A stretch of 64,000 bases of DNA from positions 5,613,501-5,677,500 of the forward strand of contig NC_081810.1 in NCBI RefSeq assembly GCF_030704535.1. The letters are read 5' to 3'. Numbering within the stretch: the stretch's first letter is position 1; every line of letters starts with the position of its first letter. The DNA is from Vitis vinifera. Its lineage: Eukaryota; Streptophyta; Magnoliopsida; Vitales; Vitaceae. Below are positions 3,537 through 57,870 of this stretch, piece after piece. A program made the translations under genes and the position numbers. The notes under the pieces were generated by a model. It was not told the origin of the DNA, did no database searches, and saw nothing but the letters and a program-made list of their open reading frames with translations.

Positions 3537-4028
3537 ATTTAGAAGGGTAAAAATGGATGATGATTGGATAGGATTTAGCCATTTAGGAAGGGCTTGGGGT
3601 TGGGGATGAGATTGAGTGGGGCCCATCAGCCTCAAAAAATCTAGAGGGTGGGGGGGGGGGGGGGGGGGAAGTGACATCAGACAGTGGCCACACACATAGA
3701 AGGGGAGAGACAAGGCGCCATGAACCCATTATCACTATTCACTACTCAGTACTCACACTGCCAGACTTTAGATTTCCCATTTTTAGAAGGGTAAAAATGG
3801 ATGATGATTGGATAGGATTTAGCCATTTAGGAAGGGCTTGGGGTTGGGGATGAGATTGAGTGGGGCCCATCAGCCTCAAAAAATCTAGAGGGTGGGGGGG
3901 GGGGGGGGGGGGGAAGTGACATCAGACAGTGGCCACACACATAGAAGGGGAGAGACAAGGCGCCATGAACCCATTATCACTATTCACTACTCAGTACTCA
4001 CACTGCCAGACTTTAGATTTCCCATTTC
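3537..4028. repeat. Tandem duplication, unit about 244/245 bp, each with a 19-20 bp poly-G run
   Basis: Two adjacent copies run from TTTAGAAGGGTAAAAATGG to CTTTAGATTTCCCAT. The first is at about 3,538-3,780 and the second at about 3,782-4,025. By eye they are identical except for the poly-G length: 19 G at 3,650-3,668 and 20 G at 3,894-3,913. Such identity means the duplication is very young, or that it is an assembly artefact at a homopolymer. Confidence 0.95.
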
Positions 4029-5173: not shown

Positions 5174-6451
5174 TCATACCACTACATACAACCCTATACA
5201 AGACATTGCGCATGCGAGGATGAACCTCTGGGCGCGGTTAATTTGAGCTTCTGATCGGAGCTCTTCGTGGAACCCCGGTGGAGAGGACATCCCCGACGGG
5301 GGTGTATACGAACCTGGTGAATTCTCCGGCGAGAAGGATATGTCCGGAGGTTGAGCACTGCCTGTTGCTTCATTGTTGGGGCTGGGCCTGGTCGTCGAAA
5401 TTGGGTTGTTCCCGAAAATCTCTCTCGGCAAGAGTACCTTGGAAACCCCAAAAATAGCAACTGGGTTTTGATCGAATACCGTCTGGGTCACCGACGCTTG
5501 TACGATCCCTGAATCAATCGCCACCGACCCATTAACCCTAGAAATGTTGAGAGTGAAGCTCTCAGCTCCCATTTCCTCTGTAGCCAATGTGGGCTGAACA
5601 GGGTTCACGATCGACTCCAGCGAACCCAGAGTGTAGTATGAATGCAGGACGTGAAACTTCAGGACCACCGCCTTCTTGTCCGCCGGAAGAGACTGTAGCC
5701 TCTCCGTCGTCGGAAGATCGGCGAATGCGTCGTCGGTCGGGATAAACATTGTTATTCCGGCACCAGCCTCATCCGCTTCGAACTCCTCCACCACCCCCGA
5801 CGCCATCAACATCGACGCCGCGACGTTGAAATTGTGGCCGTCGATTAACGTCTTCGTGATGTTCAACCCCAACGGCGGTCGACTCTCCGATGCCATCAGA
5901 TCAAATCCGTAAGGAACGAGCAGCGAATTCACAGTGAAGATGCTGACATTGTACGGAAGCGTCTTGATCAAGGAAAGAATGGTGGCGTTGGAGGGAGAGT
6001 AAGACGCCGGAGAATGGACCGAAACAGCGCCGTTTGCTGGGTTGCGCGTAATGTTCACGGAGCCGAAGTTGCTAGTGGCACGGCCGGTGGTTTGGTAGAG
6101 AGTAGTGATTAGCTTTCCGGCGGCCGGAATCTGACGGATGTCCGGCCAAGAAAGGTACTGGAGAAGCACGTGGTAGCGAATGACGTCGGCAAGACTGGAG
6201 GCGGAGGAACGGTGGGTGAGATCGGAGGAGCGGAGGAAGGAGTTGGGGACAGCGAGGAGGGTGAGAGAAGAGCGGTGGATGAGATCGCCGTCGACGGCGG
6301 TGGCGGTGAGTAGGTTAGCGAAGTCAGAGAGATCTGGGTACGTGGACAAGAGGGAGGTGATGTTGAGGGCAACAATGGGATAAGAAGAAGACAAGAGGAG
6401 GAAATAAACGATGGCAGTAGGGGCAAAATGGGAAATGCGTAAAGCGGCCAT
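5174..6451 (-). CDS. FLA4: Fasciclin-like arabinogalactan protein, FLA4/SOS5 type
   Basis: An intronless 425-aa reading frame encodes a GPI-anchored cell-wall glycoprotein. Residues 1-28 form a signal peptide with a hydrophobic core at about 14-28. Two fasciclin (FAS1) domains follow: the first at about 30-185 with TLLAVPNSFL and YHVLLQYL, the second at about 196-345 with TMFIPTDDAFADLP and KFHVLHSYYTLGSLESI. A Pro/Ser-rich arabinogalactan-like region (about 355-395, with PPD, SPEN, TPPSG, SSPPG) precedes a hydrophobic C-terminal tail (409-425) that fits a GPI-anchor signal. Several NxS/T sites are present. The second FAS1 domain, including NPVQPTLATEEMG and VFGVSKVLLP-like stretches, is what I know from Arabidopsis FLA4 (SOS5), which is about 420 aa. 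That protein works with the FEI receptor kinases in cell expansion, seed-coat mucilage and salt tolerance. The start codon is the first Met before the signal peptide. No damage was seen. Confidence 0.93.
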   Translation of the reverse strand: MAALRISHFAPTAIVYFLLLSSSYPIVALNITSLLSTYPDLSDFANLLTATAVDGDLIHRSSLTLLAVPNSFLRSSDLTHRSSASSLADVIRYHVLLQYLSWPDIRQIPAAGKLITTLYQTTGRATSNFGSVNITRNPANGAVSVHSPASYSPSNATILSLIKTLPYNVSIFTVNSLLVPYGFDLMASESRPPLGLNITKTLIDGHNFNVAASMLMASGVVEEFEADEAGAGITMFIPTDDAFADLPTTERLQSLPADKKAVVLKFHVLHSYYTLGSLESIVNPVQPTLATEEMGAESFTLNISRVNGSVAIDSGIVQASVTQTVFDQNPVAIFGVSKVLLPREIFGNNPISTTRPSPNNEATGSAQPPDISFSPENSPGSYTPPSGMSSPPGFHEELRSEAQINRAQRFILACAMSCIGLYVVV

Positions 6452-6625
6452 TTTTCCCCTGCAAGTGTAGTCTGAGTAAGAGAGCCTAGAAGAAAGAGAG
6501 GAGAGGAGAGTGTGAGAGGGTTTGATGATGGTTCATGATGGGGCTGATGTGCATGATGGTGATGTTGATGCATTTAATCCATTAACCATTCTTTCCCCAC
6601 TCGCGTCTATTTATTTGAATGAACA
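6452..6625 (-). promoter_or_regulatory. Proximal promoter and leader of the FLA4-type gene
   Basis: On the minus strand a pyrimidine-rich leader precedes the ATG (plus-strand GA-rich stretch at about 6,478-6,515). An AAATAAATAGA TATA-like box lies at 6,606-6,616, about 155 bp upstream of the start codon. The position is plausible for a leader of about 120 bp. No experimental start is implied. Confidence 0.45.
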
Positions 6626-17645: not shown

Positions 17646-20600
17646 ATGGGAAAGCCATTGAGGCGCCAAGACAGTGATGTTGGGGTTGAGGAGAATCATC
17701 CAGGCTGCATATGGGGCATATTTCATATTCTTGACTACCACCATTGGCATACCGTCAAGAAGATCCTTCCACACAAATGGCACCGTGGCAGAAGACATGC
17801 TAGATGTAAGCATCTTAATTTTCCTCAACCCCATATTTGGTTCTGCTCCACTTTTCCCACAAATATGGACATTTCTGTGAAAGCAATGTGGAATTTTGCA
17901 TATATAGCTGTTTTGAAAACAACTTTTATGATATTTGGATTTGGTAAATGTGAAGTAGATGGGGTTTTTAAGCACTTCTCCATGGCAGTTTTCGATAGAA
18001 ACTCCAGCCTAATTCTTCTACTTAAATGCCTGTTTTTTTTCTTCCTTTTATAGGTGATAAAAATCTACGAGAACATTTGATTGACAGTGGCACTGGCACT
18101 GGCAAAGCACAAGACTGCATGGATGATGAAGCAGACCAGTCTGTTGTAAGTTCATAACATGGAACTGCATCTGCTTTAATGAATGAAAAAATGTTTGGTT
18201 TGTTCACAACAGAATGTAAAGTGACATTATGTTACCTTTGATATACATCAGGTGAAACAGAGTACTACAGAAACTAACCAAGCGAACAAAAGGTCTGGCA
18301 AAGCCCGCGGTAAAGAGACAGGGAAGAAAGGGGGTCCAATACATCGTGTTTTGCGCTTCCCTGGACAACCTCGGTTGTGGCAAACTGTTTCAATCCATCA
18401 TCTAGAACCTTCAGATCCTCGGCTTGGTGAAAGAAGCACTGCTGCTGCTGTATTGCCGGATCCACCTATTCTAAAAGCCTCCGAGGAGCTAGCTGCCGGG
18501 AATTTTGTGGACTACTTGGGGCATACCCGGGATGCTAAGAAGCATGGGATATTTCATAAGAGAAGTGAGAAAGCAAGGAAAGCTTCAGTGTATCAGAATA
18601 TCATGGATTCTGACCAGCTCAACAGAGATATTTCAGGTCATCAGCTAAAGGAATGTGTGGATGTCTTGGAGCTATTACGCATAAACAAGGAGTTATTTGT
18701 GAAGATTCTACAAGACCCAGATGTCGGCATTGCAAATCGTTTTCATAGCCTGCAGACCTCCAATTCCCAAATAAAATTAACCAAATCAGGGTCATTTCCT
18801 ACAGCTGATTTGGCCCGCCGGAGAAATTTCAAGCCTAGTAAATTCGAACACAAGCAGAATGAAATTTGGTCCTTCCCAAAGAGAGAAAAACTGCTTCCTA
18901 GTGCTCAAGCACCAAAGTTGGTAGCATCCAAGTCTTCAAAGGATGTCCGTGTGGCTGATGATTTTATAGGCAGTGCTCCAGAACAAGAAAAAAGTTTGGT
19001 GAAGAACCAAGAGGATGTAAATCATTTGGCAGATACTAAGCAGAGAACAGAAAATGCTACCGAAGAGAGCACAAAGGTGAGTAACCTCCTCGTCCATGGA
19101 AGCTTGTCCACAGATGAGAACGAGGTGGCTGAATGGAGAAGGGAGAGTACAATAGGCCAAGATGGTGTAGACAAGCCCAGGGATGACAGTGCAACTGATA
19201 TCCCTGGCTATGAACACAGCAAGGGTGGAGTCTACAGCAGAAGAACATCTTTTCCAAATGACTCATTGGACAGATATGCTCAGTTGTTTGAGCATGGTTT
19301 CAGGAGAGAGGGCAGGTGGCATCACTCTAAGAGCTTAAAAGTGACAAATGAGAATGATTTTCCATCAGGGGGGCATGGTCGGAAAACAGCCAGAAGGAAT
19401 CTGTCTCTGCCTGAGTTCAATTTTTATTGTGCACAACCAAATGAGTTGTCTTCTGATGCCCTTTGTTCAGGGAAACCAAGTAGGACTTCTTTGGATAGCA
19501 CTACAAATATCACAAGAGAGAGTCACAATGAACCAAAACCTGTAGACTTTCCTTCAAGTACAGAGGAATGTGTAGCATTAGAAGCTGTTATAGGCACTGA
19601 ATTTCAAAAAGACTTGGTAGATGAAAGTGACAGTTATAATCCAAGTATTGAGTATCCGGCTGGGTCTTCAGTAGATTTAGATTACCAGAATGGGTTTAGT
19701 GAGAATGCAGATGAGCTACATATGGAGAAGAGCTATGGACAGGAAAATATTTTACTCACAGATGCTGTTGCTGCAGAGACTGAAGATAGCAAAAAGATTG
19801 TACAAGGAAGTGATAGTGGTCCAAGTGTTGAATGCCCCGCTGGATTAATGGTAGGCATAAATGATGACGGTGGGCTTAGTGAGGACATGTTTGAGCCAAT
19901 AATGACGGAAAACAGCCTTAGCCAAGAACAGGAGGTGGATCTTGAGAAGAATTCCAACACCGAGCTTGCACAACCAAGTCCAGATTCTGTTCTTGAGTCC
20001 TGTTTCCAAGATGTCATAACTACCCCAGCAAAGTCGACATTTTCAGAAGGTAATCATCATAGACTTCTTTCCAATGTGCTGAAATTCCACTAATTTTCTA
20101 GCTTTACTATTTCATTCTTGAAAAACGTTTTTCTTGTTTGGACAACCCCTTTTTCAATATGGTTAGAAAATTGAATGTTTAAATTAAATTGTATCAGGCA
20201 CAGAGTTGAAACCAAGGCGCATTGATTTTGACGAGTCGGATACTTTGATCAACTCAGAGGGCAGGTCCAGCACAGATGAATTGTCACACGTTTATGTCAC
20301 AATAAACCATGAGAAAGTTAAAAATGGAAACAAGGGTGCCTACAATCACTTCCTGGATGATGAACCGGTTAAAAAGGATGAAGCAGAGTTCAATTATGTG
20401 AGGGACGTCCTTGAGCTATCAGGCTTCACTGGGAAGGAGTACCTAGAAGCATGGCACTTGTTAGACCAGCCATTGAGCCCCTCAGTGTTCGAGGAAATGG
20501 AGGCCTGCTTGCCCCACGAAAACCAATGCTCCAAGGAGGAGGTCGGTCCAAGCTGTGATCACCAGCTTCTGTTTGACTTGGTTAACCAGGCGTTGCTCGA

Positions 20601-20883
20601 GATCTATCAAAGATCATTCACCTACTGCCCAAGAGCATTGTCATACAGCTGCCGTGTCCATCCAATGCCTGTAGGCCATCATGTTGTTGAGGCGGTCTGG
20701 GCAAATATTCGCTGGCGCCTGAGCTCGGGACAGGAGAAGGAGCTGACACTGAACGATGTTGTGGCTGGAGATTTGGCAAAGGATGATGGTTGGATGAATC
20801 TCCAGTCGGAAACAGAGTGTTTGGCATTGGAGATGGAGGATATGATTTTCCATGAACTCTTGGATGAAATGCTTTGTTGTTGA
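17646..20883 (+). CDS. TON1-recruiting-motif (TRM) family protein with DUF4378
   Basis: Four coding exons fit in one frame: 17,646-17,805, 18,054-18,145, 18,252-20,049 and 20,198-20,883, all with GT-AG introns, giving 911 aa. The N-terminus (about residues 20-53, GCIWGIFHILDYHHWHTVKK onward) is the motif found at the start of many TRM-like proteins. The C-terminal DUF4378 region (about 747-905) contains EFNYVRDVLELSGF, LLFDLVNQALLEIY and a terminal acidic EMEDMIFHELLDEML helix. TRM proteins link TON1, PP2A and cortical microtubules and influence cell shape and division-plane placement. The middle is Ser/Glu-rich and probably disordered. It holds an imperfect internal repeat in which EYPAGSSVDL...GFSEN recurs as ECPAGLMVGI...GLSED. 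The start at 17,646 is preferred over the overlapping frame at 17,674 because it alone gives the family N-terminus and splices in frame. Which TRM subgroup it belongs to is not decided. Confidence 0.88.
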
Positions 20884-23888: not shown

Positions 23889-26167
23889 ATGTGGTTGCGC
23901 TGTGCCAAACCCCTTCAGTACTTGGAAGTCTTGAGAAAATCCTCCAGATCACCATGTCATCTTCCATTCCTTTGCCCTTATTCTGATACTCCTTACAAGA
24001 AGTCAAAGAGTGCCCCTTTACAGGTTTCTGACCTCACTTCCACACAATTTTGTATATAGAATATTCTTAATCTTTATTATATATTTACATCTTCTTGATT
24101 TTGTGTTGTGATTTTTGGGACTTTGTTTACAGGAAAGAAAAATGATTGATAGATTTAGGTTATATGCAAAAGGAGGTGAGGGCGGCAGCGGTTGTTCCAG
24201 TTTCCACCGTAGCCGACATGATCGCCATGGCAGACCTGATGGTGGGTTCTCTTTTCTAGTCGAAGTCTTTATAATCATTATTTAATCAAATTATAATATT
24301 TCTTGGCAGTTCAGGTTACTTATGATATTAGTTCATTTAATCATTAGTATGTTTTCCTCCTTTTTAATAGGCTGTTATGATCTTTCCATTTGACCGGTGA
24401 CTAATATCTGCTACTTTCTTAATCTAATGCCCTATACTTTGGTTTCCTTTATTGATTGAAACTTATTCAAACAAATCTCAAACGTTTCCATTCATGAAAT
24501 AATTGCACATTCTAGTCATTTTCTTAGTTTGGAGTGACAATTTGGAATTAATGGTTTTTATACATTGCCATGTTTTTCATCTATATGTGGAATCAAGGAA
24601 GGTGGGGATGGTGGAAGAGGGGGAGATGTGATTCTAGAATGCTCTGCCACAGTTTGGGACTTCAGCAATCTACAACATCATGTTGTATGTACCATTGCCA
24701 TCTTCTCCTTCGTTATCTTTTGGTTTTGTGTCCAAATTTTTCAGAACAATATAGATCTTGATGGCTAGCATTTAGAGAATTGAGTAATGGTGACGCTGTA
24801 CTGCAGAATGCAAAGAGGGGAGGACATGGAAGTTCGAAGAATAAGATAGGAACCCGAGGGGCAGATAAGGTTACAATAAATAAGATGTTGGATGTCACTT
24901 CTGTTAAATGATAATTTCATAGTTTATTGAGAAGCTTATTTTCTGGCAGGTAGTTCGAGTGCCTGTTGGCACTGTAGTTCATCTTGTAGAAGGTGAAATT
25001 CCTTCTCAAGTTGAAAACCGATCTTCAGCAGCATTGGATCCCTGGGAGATTCCAGGCTCACTTGATGTTGATCTATCTGAATCTCACCAGAAACCTGCCT
25101 CTGTGAACCCCAGCACAGTGGAAGTAGCAGAAACAGTATATATTGTTGATGGCTCATCAACTATTGAACAAACTGTGGAAGAATCAGTCGGAAAGAGGCA
25201 AGCTACTCAAGTTTCATCATCTGTGTCTCTTCCTCAATCTTCTCCTTCCAATAACAAATCCAGAATTCTCAATGAAGATTTTCTATCCTATAAGGGAGAA
25301 GGGGGGAGTGACCCTGAAATTGTGGAGACTGATGATGGTATGTCCGAACCAGAGTTGGAAGAACAAAGAGAGCAAAAGGAACAAATACAATACAATGTTG
25401 CTGAATTAACAGAAGAAGGCCAACGTATAATTGTTGCTTGTGGAGGGGAGGGTGGTGTAGGCAATATCTCTTCATCCAAAAATTCTAGGGACCACAAACT
25501 TACAAAACTTGGGGCTGAAGTATCCGATGATGATCAATCCTCTCTTGGCATTGGGTCTCCTGGTTCGGAGGCTATTCTTGTATTGGAACTCAAGAGTATT
25601 GCTGATGTGGGTCTTGTGGGATTCCCAAATGCTGGTAAAAGTACCCTTCTAGGGGCTATGTCAAGAGCTAAGCCAACAGTAGGCCACTATGCCTTCACAA
25701 CTTTGAGGCCAAATATTGGGAATCTAAAGTATGATGATTTATCAATCACAGTGGCTGACATTCCAGGTCTTATAAAGGGTGCCCATGAGAATCGTGGACT
25801 TGGACACGCTTTCCTGCGGCACATAGAACGCACTAAAGTTATAGCTTATGTGGTAGATTTGGCTGCTGCATTAGATGGTAGGAAAGGAATTCCACCATGG
25901 GAACAGCTGAAAGATTTGATTTTAGAGCTAGAGTACTATCGAGAGGGTTTATCAAATCGACCCTCCTTAGTAGTGGCAAACAAAATCGATGAGGCAGGGA
26001 CTGAAGAATTTTATGAAGAATTGAAAAGAAGGGTGCAAGGTGTTCCAATCTTTCCTGTATGTGCAGTGCTGGAGGAGGGAATACCAGAGCTAAAAGCTGG
26101 CCTCAGAATGCTTGTGAATGGTGCAGAATCATATGGGCTGAGTTTGGACAGAATTTTGCTTGACTAG
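23889..26167 (+). CDS. OBGM: Mitochondrial Obg-type GTPase (ObgM)
   Basis: Five coding exons splice in frame: 23,889-24,023, 24,133-24,241, 24,602-24,684, 24,807-24,869 and 24,950-26,167, all GT-AG, giving 535 aa. The N-terminus is Arg/Lys/Ser-rich and fits a mitochondrial presequence. The glycine-rich Obg fold starts near residue 56 (AKGGEGGSG, then GGDGGRGGDVILE at about 82). The GTPase domain has G1 GFPNAGKST (354-362), G2 in FTTLRPNIG (about 379-387), G3 DIPG (400-403), G4 NKID (474-477) and a probable G5 at about 501-503. Between EGEIP and NVAELTEEGQ the Obg fold carries about 130 extra Ser/Glu-rich residues (about 149-281), all within exon 5. Obg proteins support assembly of the large ribosomal subunit, here presumably in mitochondria. 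The upstream half of the gene has copies in the metallothionein array. Confidence 0.92.
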
Positions 26168-30160: not shown

Positions 30161-30318
30161 TTTTTCAATCTAAATCTTGAAAGTCTTTATGCTTGGATTT
30201 GAGGTTCCAATCTATTTTTACAATACCCTTAAGAGATTCTTTTCAATCTAAATCTTGAAAGTCTTTATGCTTGGATTTGAGGTTCCAATCTATTTTTACA
30301 ATACCCTCAAGAGATTCC
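30161..30318. repeat. 78-bp tandem duplication
   Basis: The block from TTTTTCAATCTAAATC to ACCCTTAAGAGATTC occurs twice with an offset of 78 bp, differing by about one to two bases. This is a recent local duplication in non-coding DNA. Confidence 0.9.
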
Positions 30319-33159: not shown

Positions 33160-33837
33160 ATGTCTTGCTGCGGTGGAAACTGTGGTTGCGGCAGCGGCTG
33201 CAAATGCGGCAGCGGCTGCAACGGGTAAATAAAGATAAACTTGCTTTAACTCACCCTCTTCTCCTGTCTTTGTCAATCCTCCGGCACTGAATTTCCTTGA
33301 AAATGTTTTCTTTTCCTAGTGAAAGGAAGTGCTTTTTCTTGTTAGTTTTCTGGCCCCACTATTCTCAGCAACCAAACGGGGTCTCATCACGACCTGGAGT
33401 TCAACTGACGCGTAAAAACTAAAAAACATCCTTTTTTGTCACCGAATCCCTTTCTTCGGCGATTTGACTTCCGTTTTGACTGGAACATTCATCTGGGTGC
33501 TTCTCAATTTGTATCACTTGCTTATTTCTTTCCCCTTTTCCTTGTATATTTGCAGCTGCGGCATGTACGCTGACTTGGGCTCCTCAGAGAAAGCCACCAC
33601 AGCTGCAACCATCATCACCGGGGTTGCACCAGCGAAGATGTACCTACAAATACAAAAATTAAACTTTTTTTGTTCTTCATATTTTCTTGGAAATTAATGA
33701 ATTAATTATTCTTTTACTAAAATTTTGGCAGGTTCTCCGAGGGATCGGAGATGAGCTTCGAAGGAGGGGCAGGCTGCAAGTGCGGAAATGGCTGCAAATG
33801 CGGAAATGGCTGCAGCTGCAATCCATGCAGCTGCTGA
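33160..33837 (+). CDS. Metallothionein A, plant type 2-like
   Basis: Three exons, 33,160-33,224, 33,556-33,639 and 33,732-33,837, encode 84 aa. The N-terminal domain begins [20 protein letters not shown] and has eight Cys in the CC, CxC, CxC, CxxC layout of plant type 2 metallothioneins. The linker ([13 protein letters not shown]...GVAPAKM) is the usual type 2 spacer. The C-terminal domain ([14 protein letters not shown], then SCNPCSC) has eight Cys rather than the usual six, through one extra CKCGNG module. Such proteins bind Cu, Zn or Cd in the cytosol and buffer metals and oxidants. Exon 2 ends at AAGAT before GTACCT and exon 3 starts with G after CAG. The same junction works in B to D, which supports the model. 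This is the copy nearest to the ancestral protein and looks functional. Confidence 0.9.
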
Positions 33838-39073: not shown

Positions 39074-39810
39074 ATGTCTGGCTGTGGTTGTGGCTCTAGT
39101 TGTGGCTGCGGCAGCGACTGCAAGTAAATAAACTTGCTTTATGTCAATTTCTTTTTCTGGCTTTGTCAATTTCGTAGAAAATGTTTTCTTTTCCTAGTAA
39201 CAGCAAGTCTCGTCGTTCTCGATATCTTTTTCTCTTTCTTTGAATTGCCATCCTCTGCGTTTGGTTGCTGGGAAAGTATATTATGCCGGTTGAAAACGAA
39301 AGAAAATTTCAATGGGTTTTCTTCTTAATTTTCTGGCCCCCACTATTCACAGCATTCAGCAATCAAACGGAGCCTAATCCCGAACTGGGGTTCTACAAAC
39401 ATCATTTTTCATCTCTTAATCGTTTTCTTCGGCGATTCGACTCCCCCGTTTTGTCTGGTCCTTTTCCTTTTGAATCATTTGCTTATTTCTTTCCCCTTTT
39501 CCTTGAATATATTTGCAGATGTGGCAAGATGTACCCTGACCTGGGTTCCTCGGAGAAAGCCACCACCGCTGCCACCATCATCACCGGGGTCGCACCAGTG
39601 AAGATGTACCTACAAATTAAAAAATAAAAAATAAGCTTTCTCCTTTTCGCATATTTTCCGGGAAATTAATGAATTATTTATTCTTTGACTAAAATTTTTG
39701 GCAGGCACTCTGAGGGATCGGAGATGAGCCTGGAAGGAGGGAAAGGCTGCAAGTCTGGGAATGCCTGCAAGTGCGGAAATAGCTGCAACTGCGATCCATG
39801 CAACTGCTAG
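39074..39810 (+). CDS. Metallothionein B, six-Cys N-terminal domain
   Basis: Exons 39,074-39,123, 39,519-39,605 and 39,705-39,810 encode 80 aa. The N-terminal domain (MSGCGCGSSCGCGSDCKCG) has six Cys as three CxC pairs, the layout usually called type 1, while the linker ([14 protein letters not shown]...GVAPVKM) and exon structure are those of copy A. The C-terminal domain reads GCKSGNACKCGNSC followed by NCDPCNC: seven Cys, one of the two CKC pairs having become CKS. Intron phases are identical to A, C and D. The protein presumably binds fewer metal ions than A. No disabling change was seen. Its 3' flank continues the duplicated unit and, from about 40.6 kb, carries a copy of the ObgM gene's 5' end. 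Confidence 0.88.
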
Positions 39811-42427: not shown

Positions 42428-43936
42428 CATGGATTGAAAAATCGGAAAATGTCGCCGATATTTCGTCGAAATATCGGTTATCGGGCGGCATGGAAACGAT
42501 AAACGCCACCGATTATCGATCGACGGAAAAATCGGCCAAAAATCGACAAAATCTCCGATATATCGGCGAAATATCGGTGAAGCACCGAAAAATCGGAGAA
42601 AAATCGTGATATTTCCTACCAGTCCAGCCCGCGCAGTTGTGTTTTTCAGCCTGGCTCAAAAATCGTGGATTTAGGGTTCGTGAAATTTAAATCCAATGGC
42701 ACAACAGCAAAGAGACCCCTAAAACAGATCCAGAAAACACAGGGAGCAAAAGAAAAGCAATTTTTTTGGTTTTCTTTGGGAGTTTTGAATGGATTTTCTC
42801 GGAAATCAAACGAGGATGAATTTTCCCGGAAATCGAATGGGGATGGATTTTCTTGGGAATCAAACGGGGGTTGCAAAAAAAAAAAAAATAATAACATGAT
42901 TAGATTAGTACCTGCGAGGATTGAGATTTGAGAGTAGCAGAGGAAAATAGGGCTTTTTAAGGATTCTCTCGCTGGAAGACACCTTCAGAAAAGGGTTCTT
43001 GATGCCCGAGAGAGAAGTGGGTGCCTTTTTTATTTTTTTTTATTTTTAGATTTAGGGGAGATAAAAAAATAAAAAATAAAAAATAAAAAAAACATGAGAA
43101 CAATTTTCTATAAATAATTATTAATTTTCAACTTTTATTTGGATTATTAAATAAATTTATATTAATAAAAAAAGTTGTTATCACATTTTTTAATAAATTT
43201 TAAAAATTAAATCTCAAATAAGATATTTTATATAAATTAATTTAATTTATCATTTAAAATATAATAAAATATATAAAAAAATCATGAGAACAATTTTCCA
43301 CTCTCTATATAAATAATTATTAATTATCAACCTTTATTTTTATTATTAAATAAATTAATATTAATAGAAAAAGTTATTATCACATATTTTTAATAAAATT
43401 TTAAAAATTAAATCTCAAATAAGATATTTTATATAAATTAATTTAATTTTTCATTTAAAATATAATAAAATATATTTTAATAAAAATATTTTAAAATTTT
43501 TAAAATAAATACTGTCTTCAACAAGATGAACTCCCTTCATCTAATAATATATTGAAACTACATCGATATCTTTCTTAGTATAAAGACTATTGCAATCTCA
43601 TATTTCTTAACTCAATTTTAACTTTATACACTTTCAAAATTCATATATATTATTTTTAAAATTCAAATATCGAATCTACCAATATATCTCTATTTACGAT
43701 ATTTTTCTTCTTAATTATATATATATCAATTACACTTACAAGATAACTTTAAAATGTGTATTCTTACTTATGTTATCATTTTTTGAAGTTTTTTCAAGCA
43801 TTCCTATTAATTTTAAATAATTTTCACTCCACCGATATTTATGAAAAAATATCCACCGATATTTCTCCGATATTTCCGATATATCCGTAAAATTGAAGTA
43901 TCGATATATCTGTAAAAACCGATATTTCAATCCTTG
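42428..43936. mobile_element. Non-autonomous hAT element with perfect 8-bp target duplication
   Basis: Ends CATGGATTGAAA and, reversed, CAAGGATTGAAA are flanked by identical CATATGAT (42,420-42,427 and 43,937-43,944). The 1,509-bp interior has no transposase. Both subterminal regions are packed with CCGATATTTC/ATCGG motifs, a usual place for transposase binding. The central part (about 42,660-42,960) has a moderately GC-rich block with three imperfect copies of about 27 bp (CGGAAATCAAACGAGGATGA type). About 43,093-43,475 is an AT-rich tandem pair of about 190 bp each, beginning CATGAGAACAATTTTC. Confidence 0.92.
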
Positions 43937-49582: not shown

Positions 49583-49687
49583 AGCGGATATGGACTTTTC
49601 TCAATAGTACAGCAATTTAAAAAAGTTATGCTTAAATTACTGTACTGGCAGAAGTTATTACAAATATAGGGTAGTTTTTGCCACATA

Positions 49688-49868
49688 GGAGAGAGGAGAG
49701 AGGAGAGAGGAGAGAGGAGAGAGGAGAGAGGGTGAGAGAAGAGAGGAAAGAGGAGAGAAGGTGACTGTAAAAAAAAAAGCAAACTCGTCTCTTGAAGAGA
49801 CGAGTTCCATGAAAGAAGAGAGGAAAGAGGAGAGAGGAGAGAGGAGAGAGGAGAAAGGAGAGAGGGTG
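49688..49868. repeat. GA-rich heptamer minisatellite, left arm (two blocks)
   Basis: Repeats of GAGAGGA occupy 49,688-49,762 and 49,811-49,868. They are separated by one copy of the 29-bp palindrome preceded by GCAA instead of GGGA. Confidence 0.9.
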
Positions 49869-50149
49869 TGTAAAAAAAAGCAAACTCGTCTCTTGAAGAG
49901 ACGAGTTCCATGAAAAAAAATATATATATAATTTTAAAAAAATTCTAAACAATTATTCAAGGGAACTCGTCTCTTGAAGAGACGAGTTCCATGTAAAAAA
50001 AATATATATTTTTTTAAAAATATATTTTTTAATTTAAAAAAACCCAAATTTAAAAAAAAAAAAAAAAAATTTCCAAAAAGGGAACTCGTCTCTTGAAGAG
50101 ACGAGTTCCATGTAAAAAAAAATATATTTTTTATTTTAAAAAATCCCAA

Positions 50150-50916
50150 ATTTTTTTTAAAGAGACGAGTTCCATGTAAAAAAAAAAATATTTTTTAAAA
50201 AATATATTTTTTATTTTAAAAAATCCCAAATTAAAAAAAAAAAAAATTCCAAAGGGAACTCGTCTCTTCAAGAGACGAGTTCCATGTAAAAAAAAAAATA
50301 TTTTTTTAAAAATATATATATTAAAAAAAAAAATCCCAAATTAAAAAAAAAAAAAAAAACACACACAATTCCAAAGGGAACTCGTCTCTTGAAGAGACGA
50401 GTTCCATGTAAAAAAAAATATATTTTTTATTTTAAAAAATCCCAAATTTAAAAAAAAAAAAAAAAACACACACAATTCCAAAGTGAAGAGACGAGTTCCA
50501 TGTAAAAAAAAATATATTTTTTATTTTAAAAAATCCCAAATTTAAAAAAAAAAAAAATAAATTCCAAAGGGAACTCGTCTCTTTATATTAAAAAAAAAAA
50601 ATCCCAAATTAAAAAAAAAAAAAAAAAAAAAAACACAATTCCAAAGGGAACTCGTCTCTTCAAGAGACGAGTTCCATGTAAAAAAAAATATATTTTTTTA
50701 AAAATATATTTTTTATTTTAAAAAATCCCAAATTAAAAAAAAAAAAAAAAAATTCCAAAGGGAACTCGTCTCTTGAAGAGACGAGTTCCATGTAAAAAAA
50801 AAATTATTTTTTTAAAAATATATATATATTAAAAAAAAAATCCCAAATTAAAAAAAAAAAAAAAAAATTTAATTCCAAAGGGAACTCATGTAAAAAAAAA
50901 TATTTTTTTAAATATA

Positions 50917-50955
<39 letters not shown>

Positions 50956-52353
50956 AATTCCTCAAAATTCCTAACAGACGAGTTCTCATCTAAAAAAAAA
51001 TATTTTTTTTTTAAATATAAAATTTCAAGAGACGAGTTCCTTTAGGAAAAAAAAAATATTTTTTAAAAATATAATTTTTATTAAAAAATCCCAAATTTAA
51101 AAAAAAAAAAAAAAATTTCCAAAGGGAACTCGTCTCTTGAAGAGACGAGTTCCATGTAAAAAAAAATATATTTTTTAAAAAATATATTTTTTATTTTAAA
51201 AAATCCCAAATTTAAAAAAAAAAAAAAAAAAATTGCAAAAGGAACTCGTCTCTTGAAGAGACGAGTTCCATGTAAAAAAAAATATATTTTTAAAAAAATA
51301 TATTTTTTATTTTAAAAAATCCCAAATTTAAAAAAAACAAAAATAAATTCCAAAGGGAACTTGTCTCTTGAAGAGACGAGTTCCATGTAAAAAAAAAATA
51401 TTTTTTTAAAAATATATATATTAAAAAAAAAAAATCCCAAATTAAAAAAAAAAAAAAAAAAAACACAATTCCAAAGGGAACTCGTCTCTTGAAGAGACGA
51501 GTTCCATGTAAAAAAAAATATATTTTTTAAAAAATATATTTTTTATTTTAAAAAATCCCAAATTAAAAAAAAAAAAAAAATCCAAAGTCAAGAGACGAGT
51601 TCCAGGTAAAAAAGAATATTTTTTTTAAAAAAATCCTAAATTAAAAAAAAAAAAAAAATCCAAAGGGAACTCGTCTCTTGAAGAGACGAGTTCCATGTAA
51701 AAAAAAAAATATTTTTTTAAAAATATATATATTAAAAAAAAAAATCCCAAATTAAAAAAAAAAAAAAAACACACACACAATTCCAAAGGGAACTCGTCTC
51801 TTGAAGAGACGAGTTCCATGTAAAAAAAAATATATTTTTTATTTTAAAAAATCCCAAATTTAAAAAAAAAAAAAAACACACACACACAATTCCAAAGTGA
51901 AGAGACGAGTTCCATGTAAAAAAAAATATATTTTTTATTTTAAAAAATCCCAAATTTAAAAAAAAAATAAATAAATTCCAAAGGGAACTCGTCTCTTTAT
52001 ATTAAAAAAAAAAAATCCCAAATTAAAAAAAAAAAAAAAAAAAAAACACAATTCCAAAGGGAACTCGTCTCTTCAAGAGACGAGTTCCATGTAAAAAAAA
52101 ATATATTTTTTTAAAAATATATTTTTTATTTTAAAAAATCCCAAATTAAAAAAAAAAAAAAAAAATTCCAAAGGGAACTCGTCTCTTGAAGAGACGAGTT
52201 CCATGTAAAAAAAAAATTATTTTTTTAAAAATATATATATATTAAAAAAAAAATCCCAAATTAAAAAAAAAAAAAAAAAATTTAATTCCAAAGGGAACTC
52301 GTCTCTTCAAGAGACGAGTTCCCATGTAAAAAAAAAATATTTTTTTAAATATA

Positions 52354-52390
<37 letters not shown>

Positions 52391-52930
52391 CAATTCCTCA
52401 AAATTCCTAACAGACGAGTTCTCATCTAAAAAAAAATATTTTTTTTTTAAATATAAAATTTCAAGAGACGAGTTCCTTTAGGAAAAAAAATATATTTTTT
52501 AAAAATATAATTTTTATTAAAAAATCCCAAATTTAAAAAAAAAAAAAAAATTTCCAAAGGGAACTCGTCTCTTGAAGAGACGAGTTCCATGTAAAAAAAA
52601 ATATATTTTTTAAAAAATATATTTTTTATTTTAAAAAATCCCAAATTTAAAAAAAAAAAAAAAAAATTGCAAAAGGAACTCGTCTCTTGAAGAGACGAGT
52701 TCCATGTAAAAAAAAATATATTTTTAAAAAAATATATTTTTTATTTTAAAAAATCCCAAATTTAAAAAAAACAAAAATAAATTCCAAAGGGAACTCGTCT
52801 CTTGAAGAGACGAGTTCCATGTAAAAAAAAAATATTTTTTTAAAAATATATATATTAAAAAAAAAAAATCCCAAATTAAAAAAAAAAAAAAAAAAAAAAA
52901 CACAATTCCAAAGGGAACTCGTCTCTTGAA
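50150..52930. repeat. About 1.42-kb internal direct duplication in the left arm
   Basis: Landmarks recur with an offset of about 1,414-1,436 bp. GGGAACTCGTCTCTTTATAT is at 50,569 and again near 51,983. CTAACAGACGAGTTCTCATC is at 50,971 and 52,407. The ACACACAATTCCAAAGTGAA block is near 50,468 and 51,883. Same-sense copies of this size were not seen in the right arm. Confidence 0.85.
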
Positions 52931-53110
52931 GAGACGAGTTCCATGTAAAAAAAAATATATTTTTTAAAAAATATATTTTTTATTTTAAAAAATCCCAAAT
53001 TAAAAAATATATTTTTTTTCCTAAAGGAACTCGTGTCTTAAAATTTTATATTTAAAAAAAATATATTTTTTTTAGATGAGAACTCGTCTGTTAGGAATTT
53101 TGAGGAATTG

Positions 53111-53142
<32 letters not shown>

Positions 53143-54116
53143 TATATTTAAAATTTTTTTTTTTTTTACATGGGAACTCGTCTCTTCAAGAGACGAGTTC
53201 CCTTTGGAATTAATTTTTTTTTTTTTAATTTGGGATTTTTTTTTAATATATATATATATTTTTAAAAAAATAATTTTTTTTTTACATGGAACTCGTCTCT
53301 TGAAGAGACGAGTTCCCTTTGGAATTTTATTTTTTTTTTAATTCGGGATTTTTTAAAATAAAAAATATATTTTTTAAAAAATATATTTTTTTTTACATGG
53401 AACTCATCTCTTCAAGAGACGAGTTCCCTTTGGAATTGTGTTTTTTTTTTTTTTTTTTTTTTTTTTCTAATTTGGGATTTTTTTTTTAATATATATATTT
53501 TAAAAAAAATATATTTTTTTTTACATGGAACTCGTCTCTTCAAGAGACGAGTTCCCTTTGGAATTTATTTTTGTTTTTTTTAAATTTGGGATTTTTTAAA
53601 ATAAAAAATATATTTTTTAAAAAATATATTTTTTTTTACATGGAACTCGTCTCTTCACTTTGGAATTGTGTGTTTTTTTTTTTTTTTTTAATTTGGGATT
53701 TTTTTTTTAATATATATATTTTTTAAAAAATATATTTTTTTTTACATGGAACTCGTCTCTTGAAGAGACGAGTTCCCTTTGGATTTTTTTTTTTTTTAAT
53801 TTGGGATTTTTTAAAATAAAAATTATATTTTTTAAAAAATATATTTTTTTTTACATGGAACTCGTCTCTTCAAGAGACGAGTTCCCTTTGGAATTTTTTT
53901 TTTTTTGGAATTTTTTTTTTTAAAATTTGGGATTTTTTAAAATAAAAATTTTTTTTTTTTTTACATGGAACTCGTCTCTTGGATTTTTTTACATGGAACT
54001 CGTCTCTTCAAGAGACGAGTTCCCTTGAATAATTGTTTAGAATTTTTTTAAAATTATATATATTTTTTTTTTCATGGAACTCGTCTCTTCAAGAGACGAG
54101 TTTGCTTTTTTTTACA

Positions 54117-54376
54117 CACCCTCTCTCCTCTCTCCTCTCTCCTGTCTCCTCTCTCTCACCCTCTCTCCTCTCTCCTCTCTCCTCTTTCCTCTCTTCTTTC
54201 ATGGAACTCGTCTCTTCAAGAGACGAGTTTGCTTTTTTTTTAGTCACCCTCTCTCCTCTCTCCTCTCTCCTATCTCCTCTCTCTCACCCTCTCTCCTCTC
54301 TCCTCTCTCCTCTTTCCTCTCTTCTCTCACCCTCTCTCCTCTCTCCTCTCTCCTCTTTCCTCTCTCCTCTCTCCTA
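54117..54376. repeat. CT-rich heptamer minisatellite, right arm
   Basis: Repeats of TCCTCTC occupy 54,117-54,199 and 54,244-54,376, the mirror of the GA blocks in the left arm. The right blocks are longer, so the two arms have diverged in copy number. Confidence 0.9.
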
Positions 54377-54498
54377 TGTGGCAAAAACTACCCTATATTT
54401 GTAATAACTTCTGCCAGTACAGTAATTTAAGCATAACTTTTTTAAATTGCTGTACTATTGAGAAAAGTCCGGACTATTGAGAAAAGTCAAGAGGATGT

Positions 54499-54792: not shown

Positions 54793-55024
54793 TGTGGACC
54801 CCGCATTTTCGATTGCTCGAATGCGTTTCCCACTCGATGACGAGCTCGATTTTTATTTGAAAAATTGATTTTTATTGATTATTTGAAAATGACTTGGAGT
54901 CGCCATTTTGTGGACCCCGCATTTTCGATTGCTCGAATGCGTTTCCCACTCGATGGCGAGCTCGATTTTTATTTGAAAAATTGATTTTTATTGATTATTT
55001 GAAAATGACTTGGAGTCGCCACTT
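54793..55024. repeat. 116-bp tandem duplication at the left end of the element
   Basis: TGTGGACCCCGCATTTTCGA starts at 54,793 and again at 54,909, and both copies run through ACTTGGAGTCGCCA. The two differ at about one base (CGATGACGAG against CGATGGCGAG), so the duplication is young compared with the relics inside the element. Confidence 0.93.
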
Positions 55025-56585: not shown

Positions 56586-57269
56586 TGCTTTTTCTTGCGC
56601 GAAGTGAGATAATGGATTGGATGCATGGGGCTTCGGAAATGGCACACGGTTTGAAGGTGGTTTTGGATGGTTGAGTGAGTGGGTGATATGGGCATCGGAC
56701 GGGATGAGTGGATGGCTGTAGGTTCGGGGAGTGTGTAGGGTGATGATGCCATGCGTGCAAAGGTTGAGGTGACAGATTGGGTGACGAAGGGTAGTGAGAA
56801 GGGTGCACTTAATGGCAGAATGGATGAGTGAGAGAAGGTAATGAGGGGAGTATCGGCCATGAGCAGTGGGTTTGTGGGTATTAAAAGAGTAGTGGCATGC
56901 ATGGGAAGGTTTAGAGAGGAGTGGGTATGAGGATGCAGAGAGAATGAAGGCTATGACGGGAATGGCTTTGCTTGAGTCGTGATTGATAATGGGATGGTGT
57001 TGCCTTCATAAGATGGCGAGATGATGAAATGGGTATGGTAATTGAGGATGCGAGTGGTAGACGGAGTCGCAAGATTGAACGCGTCCTCCACGTCATCCCA
57101 TGTCCATTTGACCGGTAGTGCTCACCATCTGAAGGAGTGTCATCCACCCTCAACACTCATGTGGACTGTGGACCCATGCAGAAATGATGAAGCTGTAGGG
57201 ATTTTAACAAGGCGGCATTTCATCCACCTAAAAATCAAGTGATTTTCCATAGCCTTGAGAGTGACATTA

Positions 57270-57870
57270 AACCCATCAAAAGGAATCGCTGCATAAGACA
57301 CGTCAAAGCAGCCGACCCATACTGTGCCCACCTTCAATGCGCGCATCAGGATATTGGCTGTATCTAAGCTCTGGGCAAAGACTCCAACTATTAACTCATA
57401 GTGAGCAGCGTTTGTCTTTCCGATCACCTCACCCAGGTCCTTGAATTTCAAAATGAACTGCACTGGTATAAGAATCTTTTCTGTTGCTATCAACATATTA
57501 CCACGGACATTTGAGAAGTCGGTGGATGGGATATAATAGCCTTTAGAACCGAATTTTCCACCTCTGACACCAAAAGTTGCACCAGCTTCAATACCAGATT
57601 TTGTGTAACCAAGGATCCTATGAAATTGCTGATGATTAACACGAGGTCCTTATTCCACTCTTTTCTTAAAAGGATCATTGACTATGCGTTTTAAAGCATA
57701 AAATCATCATTTTGGATGCGAATATAGGTGATCCGTTACAACAACAATGTCTCAGCACCAATTGACCCTATGAAAGCAAGCCTTTTCACATCCATATGAC
57801 CAGAAAGAGTGCCCTAGCTATATGACCAAAACCAGAAACCACCTTTAAAGCACCATGAGGGAATTTCGCT
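57270..57870 (-). pseudogene. Aldehyde dehydrogenase (ALDH2-type) fragment
   Basis: On the minus strand about 57,270-57,640 reads in one frame as QQFHRILGYTKSGIEAGATF, then GGKFGSKGYYI, NMLIATEKILIPVQFILKF, KDLGEVI, GVFAQSLDTANILMRALKVG and TVWVGCFDV...AAIPFDG. These are the C-terminal blocks of family 2 aldehyde dehydrogenases in correct order. Upstream on the same strand (57,640-57,870) are frameshifted pieces of an earlier part (GALKVVSGFG, SHMDV-like, RLAFIGS). The segment between them, which carries the catalytic Cys and the ELGGKSP block, is absent, and the end after PFDG is replaced. Several diagnostic residues are changed. This is a captured, non-functional fragment inside the LTR-like element. 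Confidence 0.88.

Follow-up and report, generated by a model that had tools for sequence, protein, structure and literature searches.

We analysed a repetitive element in a 64,000-nt stretch of the grapevine (Vitis vinifera) genome (contig NC_081810.1, positions 5,613,501 to 5,677,500, forward strand), hereafter the window, to whose full length the window coordinates below refer. A first-pass annotation had placed at 49592 to 54489 a foldback made of about 40 copies of a 29-bp palindrome, with outer inverted repeats, mirror arrays of GA and CT heptamers and palindrome-centred units, an organization that the repeat and pairing coordinates bear out (Table 1). A single element (49592-54470), starting with GGACTTTTCTCAATAGTACAG, is followed directly by an 18-bp stub (54471-54488), so the proposed span was accurate to one base. 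The terminal inverted repeats are 96 bp long and identical at both ends, the outer inverted repeat arms (49593-49758 and 54304-54469) are 99% complementary, and the GA heptamers lie at 49687-49758 and 49811-49865.

The palindrome, GGAACTCGTCTCTTSAAGAGACGAGTTCC, has 30 full copies (at most 6 substitutions), of which 24 are perfect; every one lies within 49780-54231, outside the terminal 96 bp. When the arms were counted singly (at most 3 substitutions), 36 left and 38 right arms were found and therefore 44 sites, half sites included; the estimate of about 40 copies was thus right about the array, its number corresponding to 30 full copies plus 14 half sites. Spacing is mostly 109-128 bp, with some intervals of 138-364 bp and others of 81-101 bp. 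Perfect odd palindromes with 14-base arms number 24 in the element, with none in the remainder of the window and none in 50 dinucleotide shuffles of the element; under a looser definition (arms of at least 10 bases, 3 G/C), the other 59 kb of the window has 2 palindromes, which are dissimilar to each other.

Pairing of the two arms over more than 1 kb, also part of the annotation, was confirmed between 49593-51054 and 53012-54469, where 1265 of 1299 aligned columns are identical (97%; gaps excluded), but the foldback is asymmetric, with about 3.4 kb on the left and 1.46 kb on the right. The left half contains a 1.4-kb tandem duplication. These long inverted repeats consist of heptamers and palindrome units, that is, of subrepeats, as is characteristic of foldback elements. 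The stub reads as if the first bases of one terminus had been fused to the last bases of the other and is probably the remnant of a second terminus, perhaps from a further copy that has been lost or that went in at this same end. The window copy has no adjoining target duplication (2 of 10 bases match); by eye, the ten bases past the stub agree with the left flank at 7 positions.

Table 1. Features of the foldback element in window coordinates.
Feature	Position	Strand	Remarks
Whole non-autonomous foldback Mutator-like element, family A	49592-54470		Ends GGACTTTTCTC...GAGAAAAGTCC, common to 15 other elements examined
Left terminal inverted repeat, non-repetitive part	49592-49687	+	Identical to right end over 96 bp
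GA heptamer arrays (AGGAGAG)	49687-49865	+	First palindrome (49780-49808) between them
Left palindrome array	49780-52942	+	21 full palindromes (at most 6 substitutions) and half sites; strand gives unit orientation
Tandem duplication (1.4 kb), copy 1, inside left array	50160-51570	+	1379 of 1387 aligned bases identical to copy 2
Tandem duplication (1.4 kb), copy 2	51590-53007	+	
Right palindrome array, units reversed	53012-54231	-	9 full palindromes (at most 6 substitutions) at 53173-54231; pairs with 49593-51054
CT heptamer arrays mirroring the left GA arrays	54120-54375	-	
Right terminal inverted repeat, non-repetitive part	54375-54470	-	
Stub GGACTATTGAGAAAAGTC	54471-54488		

A search of the genome (495.6 Mb in 21 contigs, whose labels, such as C7 or C10, are distinct from the family letters A to E used below) found the exact palindrome at 1111 sites, each counted on both strands and irrespective of whether it lies in such an element, while the palindrome with its letters reversed, used as a control, was found at none. 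The left 100 bases of the element gave 322 candidate places, and the 40 that were scored, 20 of them 100% identical, resolve into 17 pairs and 6 singles; 13 pairs span 2.4-6.1 kb and four span 13.6-22 kb. We examined 16 of the 17 pairs, including the window copy, leaving out C4:4960869-4963273 and the six unpaired places, so that these elements were selected by their ends. Palindromes are present in all 16, with 3 to 56 perfect copies apiece. The 10-bp target duplication is exact in 6 of the 16, matches at 9 of 10 bases in 3, at 7-8 in 2 and at 5 or fewer in 5 (window copy included); across flanks, positions 1-10 agree in 11-13 of the 16 elements and positions 11-15 in 1-5. Such a highly repetitive, A/T-rich array is difficult to assemble, and the annotation itself had named an assembly artefact or a catalogued satellite as what would overturn it. 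The transposon ends that bound the arrays in all 16 end-selected elements, most with target duplications, rule out an ordinary satellite, and an artefact is unlikely given the 1111 genome sites and the presence of the palindrome in elements at separate loci; we give an explanation of either kind almost no weight.

The long pairs reveal what the window copy lacks. One (C10:8374700-8390100) is long because a Ty3/gypsy-type retrotransposon, with an open frame of 1493 residues, is nested in it and splits a family-A element. The three others, on C7, C3 and C13, carry two converging genes, encoding a plant mobile domain (PMD) protein and a MuDR-type transposase, with palindrome arrays at each end of the element and in the interval where the 3' ends of the genes face each other. 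In the C7 copy the PMD gene matches PF10536 (E 3.6e-55), and the 860-aa transposase frame matches PF10551 (E 2.7e-18), PF03108 (E 4.2e-11) and SWIM (E 5.8e-09). Over its full 860 residues this frame is free of stops at C7 and C9:1847649 and has at least one stop in the other listed copies. In the transposase region (about 4.7 kb) three copies differ from the majority by 10, 15 and 35 bases (about 97% by gapped BLAST), and because of these few differences family A looks young. The C13 element (C13:7406100-7429100) is 22 kb long and holds 56 perfect palindromes, most in a much-extended left array.

Family A therefore combines terminal inverted repeats, a target duplication within the 8-11 bp of Mutator-like elements (MULEs) and a DDE transposase in a relative with the same ends. 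These results show that the window element is a young, non-autonomous member of the Mutator superfamily of DNA transposons, retaining little beyond cis-sequences: the terminal repeats, GA-rich sequence next to them and the 29-bp palindrome in many copies. The proposal of a foldback, Mutator-like, non-autonomous element was thus upheld by the target duplications and by the transposase and arrays of the long relatives, and the autonomous relative with the same terminal repeats that was sought was found in the C7 element.

Several described systems resemble family A. PMD frames in plant MULEs are already known: Table 1 of PMC6446971 lists MULEs (MUDRAVI2, MUDR and others) that have, as here, a PMD gene (frequently antisense) alongside a MuDR-type transposase, and these groups also show a SWIM finger, long terminal repeats and, in the MUDR group, target duplications of 9-10 bp; unlike family A, no palindrome arrays are mentioned in that table. 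The grapevine elements Mutavine-1 to -18 (PMC2528002), several of which are Repbase entries, likewise have terminal repeats and many deleted copies, and family A may be one of these families, although, by a comparison of descriptions only, their target duplications are always 9 nt and those of family A 10. Foldback MULEs with long inverted repeats built from subrepeats, many non-autonomous copies and a MULE transposase are treated in passages on Muta1 of Aedes aegypti (PMC5225508), MuTAnT of Medicago and FARE of Arabidopsis (the former described, the latter named, in PMC4486113). The passages on Muta1 give a 10-bp terminal palindrome and 12-bp direct subterminal repeats and mention no PMD, whereas here units of about 110 bp each carry a palindrome and are associated with a PMD gene. 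In open-licence PubMed Central literature we found no link of a MULE PMD to palindrome arrays and no PMD combined with DUF1985; a full-text search for GAGACGAGTTCC returned nothing but an unrelated match, and the exact palindrome was found in no stretch of viral contigs.

A sister family, B, retains part of the palindrome. Its transposases are 59-69% identical to those of A, and for the PMD gene (C7 against C3:10483088 only) dS, the synonymous divergence, is 1.93 and 1.28 and dN, the nonsynonymous divergence, 0.22 and 0.30 in the two exons. Family B arrays are repeats of AARGTGTCTCTTSAAGAGACACYTT with spacers and unit lengths unlike those of A, yet the two palindromes have a common 15-bp core, GTCTCTTSAAGAGAC (GTCTCTT-S-AAGAGAC). 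All five B loci have core sites 3' of the PMD gene, numbering 16, 16, 16 and 12 (at most 2 core substitutions) and 16 in an older copy (at most 3), and at C3:10483088 and C18:31050998 the arrays reach the terminal region. Within one B array, units compared with one another are 86-91% alike in the palindrome, 47-52% in the 25 bp on each side and 30% in random windows, values biased by the choice of sites by palindrome. At one outer position the symmetry is broken in many B sites (AAAG... versus ...CCTT). At this distance between the PMD genes neutral DNA would be near saturation, and yet the palindrome core persists.

To extend this comparison, we searched the genome with the first PMD exon and scored 133 of 465 candidates, from which four extra loci were picked for fairly open frames or position, not randomly; among solved structures the same exon had no match at E up to 1. 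Family C (C10:1746323) has 13 sites of TAAAACCACAGTTWGTAACTGTGGTTTTA 3' of the PMD gene (at most 5 substitutions), and of its six exact sites two are perfect 14+1+14 palindromes and four have one mismatched pair beside the centre. Family E (C13:5991851) has, also 3' of the PMD gene, 3.7 copies of a 38-bp repeat with AAAGCCGCATTTGSCAAATGCGGCTTT-like sites; beside it lies a 360-bp tandem repeat (L065 899-1893, C13) of 2.7 copies that are 97% alike. Altogether palindromes are present at 10 of 12 PMD loci: all three A loci, all five B loci and the single C and E loci, but neither the one D locus nor the one on C9. The ending K-x-PSCGTH is common to the PMD frames of families A to D, with an RG-rich or basic stretch before it in A, B and D; by eye, a [CT]GTGGC word lies on the terminal side of the array in all four palindrome-bearing families (A, B, C and E). 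One locus tried as a PMD-free control, C9:18392048, was rejected because a PMD lies about 5 kb downstream, and it enters the tally above as the palindrome-free PMD locus on C9. On C19, two equal-scoring PMD copies, 7931049-7931687 (+) and 7937910-7938548 (-), face each other 6.2 kb apart and are perhaps one large inverted element.

Palindrome and PMD co-vary among the four families with palindromes. Over the 13 bases beside the centre, in consensus half-sites drawn by eye, A and B agree at 10, C and E at 9 and the other pairings at 4-6; with shuffled letters the corresponding p values are 0.00025 and 0.00125 for A-B and C-E and 0.08-0.39 otherwise. Identity in PMD exon 2 is 0.64 for A-B, 0.60 for C-E and 0.51-0.54 across, with 0.41-0.43 between a decayed B copy and C and E, and 0.40-0.55 between the palindrome-free C9 copy and A, B, C and E. 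Half-site likeness thus appears to track PMD likeness, in four families forming two pairs, which is suggestive, no more.

Co-variation could equally track the transposase, because in A and B it has one history with the PMD. According to a foldback or Galileo-type proposal, which agrees with the subterminal transposase site put forward in the annotation, the palindrome would have been amplified since extra sites aid synapsis or cleavage. The arrays do adjoin the terminal repeats in A and B, non-autonomous copies consist of ends and arrays, and several transposase sites in long terminal repeats are described for Galileo in passages of PMC3688188. The palindrome lies outside the terminal 96 bp, however, and a further array separates the 3' ends of the genes. 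Furthermore, a transposase relative 64% identical to that of A (C10:9705146, the single such locus) has no PMD within 6 kb on either side and no palindrome, whereas B copies, no closer at 59-69% but with a PMD, have it. We therefore regard a transposase site as unlikely, though still a serious candidate.

We consider it somewhat more probable than not, judging from these comparisons, that the palindrome is a family-specific site amplified together with its PMD gene and serving anti-silencing in the manner of VANC. Parts of PMC5735166 describe VANC as binding short motifs amplified as non-coding tandem repeats, with related VANCs acting on other motifs, and VANCs as having DUF1985 and variable regions, often with peptide repeats. 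A short motif amplified in non-coding arrays and differing between related families was found here in A, B, C and E. Compared with VANC of VANDAL21 in Arabidopsis, as presented in sections of PMC5735166 and PMC10398659, the accessory protein is of DUF1985 type there and a PMD, not clearly of that type, here; the VANC motif is a 9-bp non-palindromic word and the grape motif a palindrome of 25-29 bp; and binding and anti-silencing are demonstrated for VANC, while for family A we infer them.

Under this explanation, long family-A elements would make a MuDR-type transposase, expected to act on the ends, and as a second product a PMD protein whose tail is variable, basic and rich in RG. With its two half-sites inverted about a single central base, the palindrome is most likely the site for a PMD dimer or a PMD-containing complex, a reading we adopt because of the VANC precedent and because counter-silencing by transposon PMDs has previously been suggested (in parts of PMC8616336, PMC7156037 and PMC9899485). 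The arrays, embedded in A/T tracts at either end and in the intergenic stretch, would concentrate the PMD protein on the element, and the bound protein would counter host silencing so that the element stays accessible for transcription and transposition, as VANC and its motif arrays do for VANDAL elements in Arabidopsis; the same proteins would presumably serve the non-autonomous copies. PMD and palindrome would change together, so that each MULE family would have its own matched pair.

Several observations weigh against this explanation. Family D (C1:24790102) shows no palindrome in the 2.2 kb seen 3' of its PMD, where non-palindromic 85/153-bp tandem repeats (L066 1739-2201) extend beyond the stretch read, and a decayed PMD copy at C9:18399071 has none in 4.0 kb. 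The sample is small, four families in two related pairs, with non-randomly chosen extra loci and half-sites read by eye, and families C and E are known here from the PMD and the 3' array, their transposases being unseen. The DUF1985 (PF09331) match that would point to VANC is below the curated cutoff in two family-A PMD pieces (E 0.023 and 0.0041) and absent from the family-B pieces, and some host PMD proteins have the opposite effect, promoting silencing. CpG decay, read as a footprint of methylation, gave no clear indication that the palindromes are specially methylated, and in family A the palindrome is gapped more often than its flanks (6.3% versus 0.8-1.4%).

Nor is the palindrome clearly better conserved than its flanks within A or among B copies. 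In 254 family-A units anchored on a spacer word, which avoids choosing by palindrome, divergence is 89/6902 (1.3%) in the palindrome, 11/1008 (1.1%) and 53/2263 (2.3%) in the adjoining non-homopolymer spacer and 370/11521 (3.2%) elsewhere in the unit. A first count that favoured the palindrome (0.7% versus 4.5-15.5%) was biased because sites had been selected by palindrome, and was dropped after the difference mostly vanished with spacer anchors. Among four B copies palindrome and spacer diverge alike (Fisher p 0.36-1; 18/349 versus 38/696 in the widest-tested pair). The contrast between a constant palindrome and varying spacers, read in the annotation as a sign of selection, gene conversion or recent amplification, therefore fails within families (1.3% versus 1.1-3.2%), the impression having arisen mostly because poly-A/T lengths change. 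Copies decay evenly once inserted, which neither supports nor refutes function, and selection would be visible, if anywhere, between families.

The same equal divergence would suit functionless palindromes whose hairpins drive template switching and slippage, spreading and perfecting them with array homogenization as a by-product, and the half sites and recent 1.4-kb duplication do indicate active rearrangement. But such a process would not account for a core common to A and B at a PMD dS of 1.3-1.9 despite different spacers, perfecting would erase the outer asymmetry of the B sites, and the arrays lie 3' of the PMD in four families; we judge it improbable. A further proposal is that the foldback serves chiefly to yield double-stranded RNA and small RNAs, with the palindromes as RNA hairpins and an effect like that of Mu killer, a silencing trigger. 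Arms 97% identical over 1299 aligned columns fit it, but they follow from the foldback and leave the family-specific, PMD-tied palindrome unexplained, and stems of 14 bp are short for Dicer. Although RNA-directed DNA methylation targets the same non-coding VANDAL regions as VANC, as stated in part of PMC10398659, we consider this proposal very doubtful.

Host PMD proteins offer a parallel to the PMD-bound arrays that we favour. Sections of PMC8616336, PMC7156037 and PMC9899485 report that they affect transposon silencing and genes with promoter motifs; in MAIN and MAIL1 with the DOWN motif (portions of PMC7156037 and PMC9899485) a PMD is likewise linked to a promoter DNA motif. Unlike the PMD genes described here, MAIN and MAIL1 are host genes and not transposon-borne, and the motif printed for MORC1, CATGCAGTTT, differs from the palindrome. 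It is conceivable, though we would not yet lean towards it, that PMDs of plant MULEs, in Brassicaceae and beyond, are in general sequence-specific DNA-binding anti-silencing factors matched to their own arrays of 25-29-bp palindromes, protein and site diverging in step, in which case host PMD proteins such as MAIN and MAIL1 would be part of a lineage of DNA-reading transposon proteins.

Elsewhere in the window, a metallothionein-like gene has a first exon at 33160-33225 (PF01439, E 4.4e-05) and a second at 33748-33834 (PF05522, E 0.019, below cutoff); similar words seen by eye near 39720, 46470, 47170 and 62410 make this a gene cluster. Open frames match a fasciclin domain (5174-6529, -), DUF4378 (20188-20880, +), an Obg-type GTPase (24923-26164, +) and, about 2.7 kb right of the element, a fragment of aldehyde dehydrogenase (57140-57646, -). 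Near-perfect tandem duplications at 3538-4027 (unit 245 bp), 43109-43475 (201 bp), 54793-55021 (116 bp) and 30162-30317 (78 bp) are signs of recent local duplication.

The family-specific palindromes 3' of transposon PMD genes provide concrete DNA targets for a binding test. If the PMD proteins do act on them as proposed, self-protection of the VANC type would have a counterpart in a different protein domain and plant order, with matched pairs of protein and site, and this would explain non-autonomous copies that, like the window element, consist of little but arrays.

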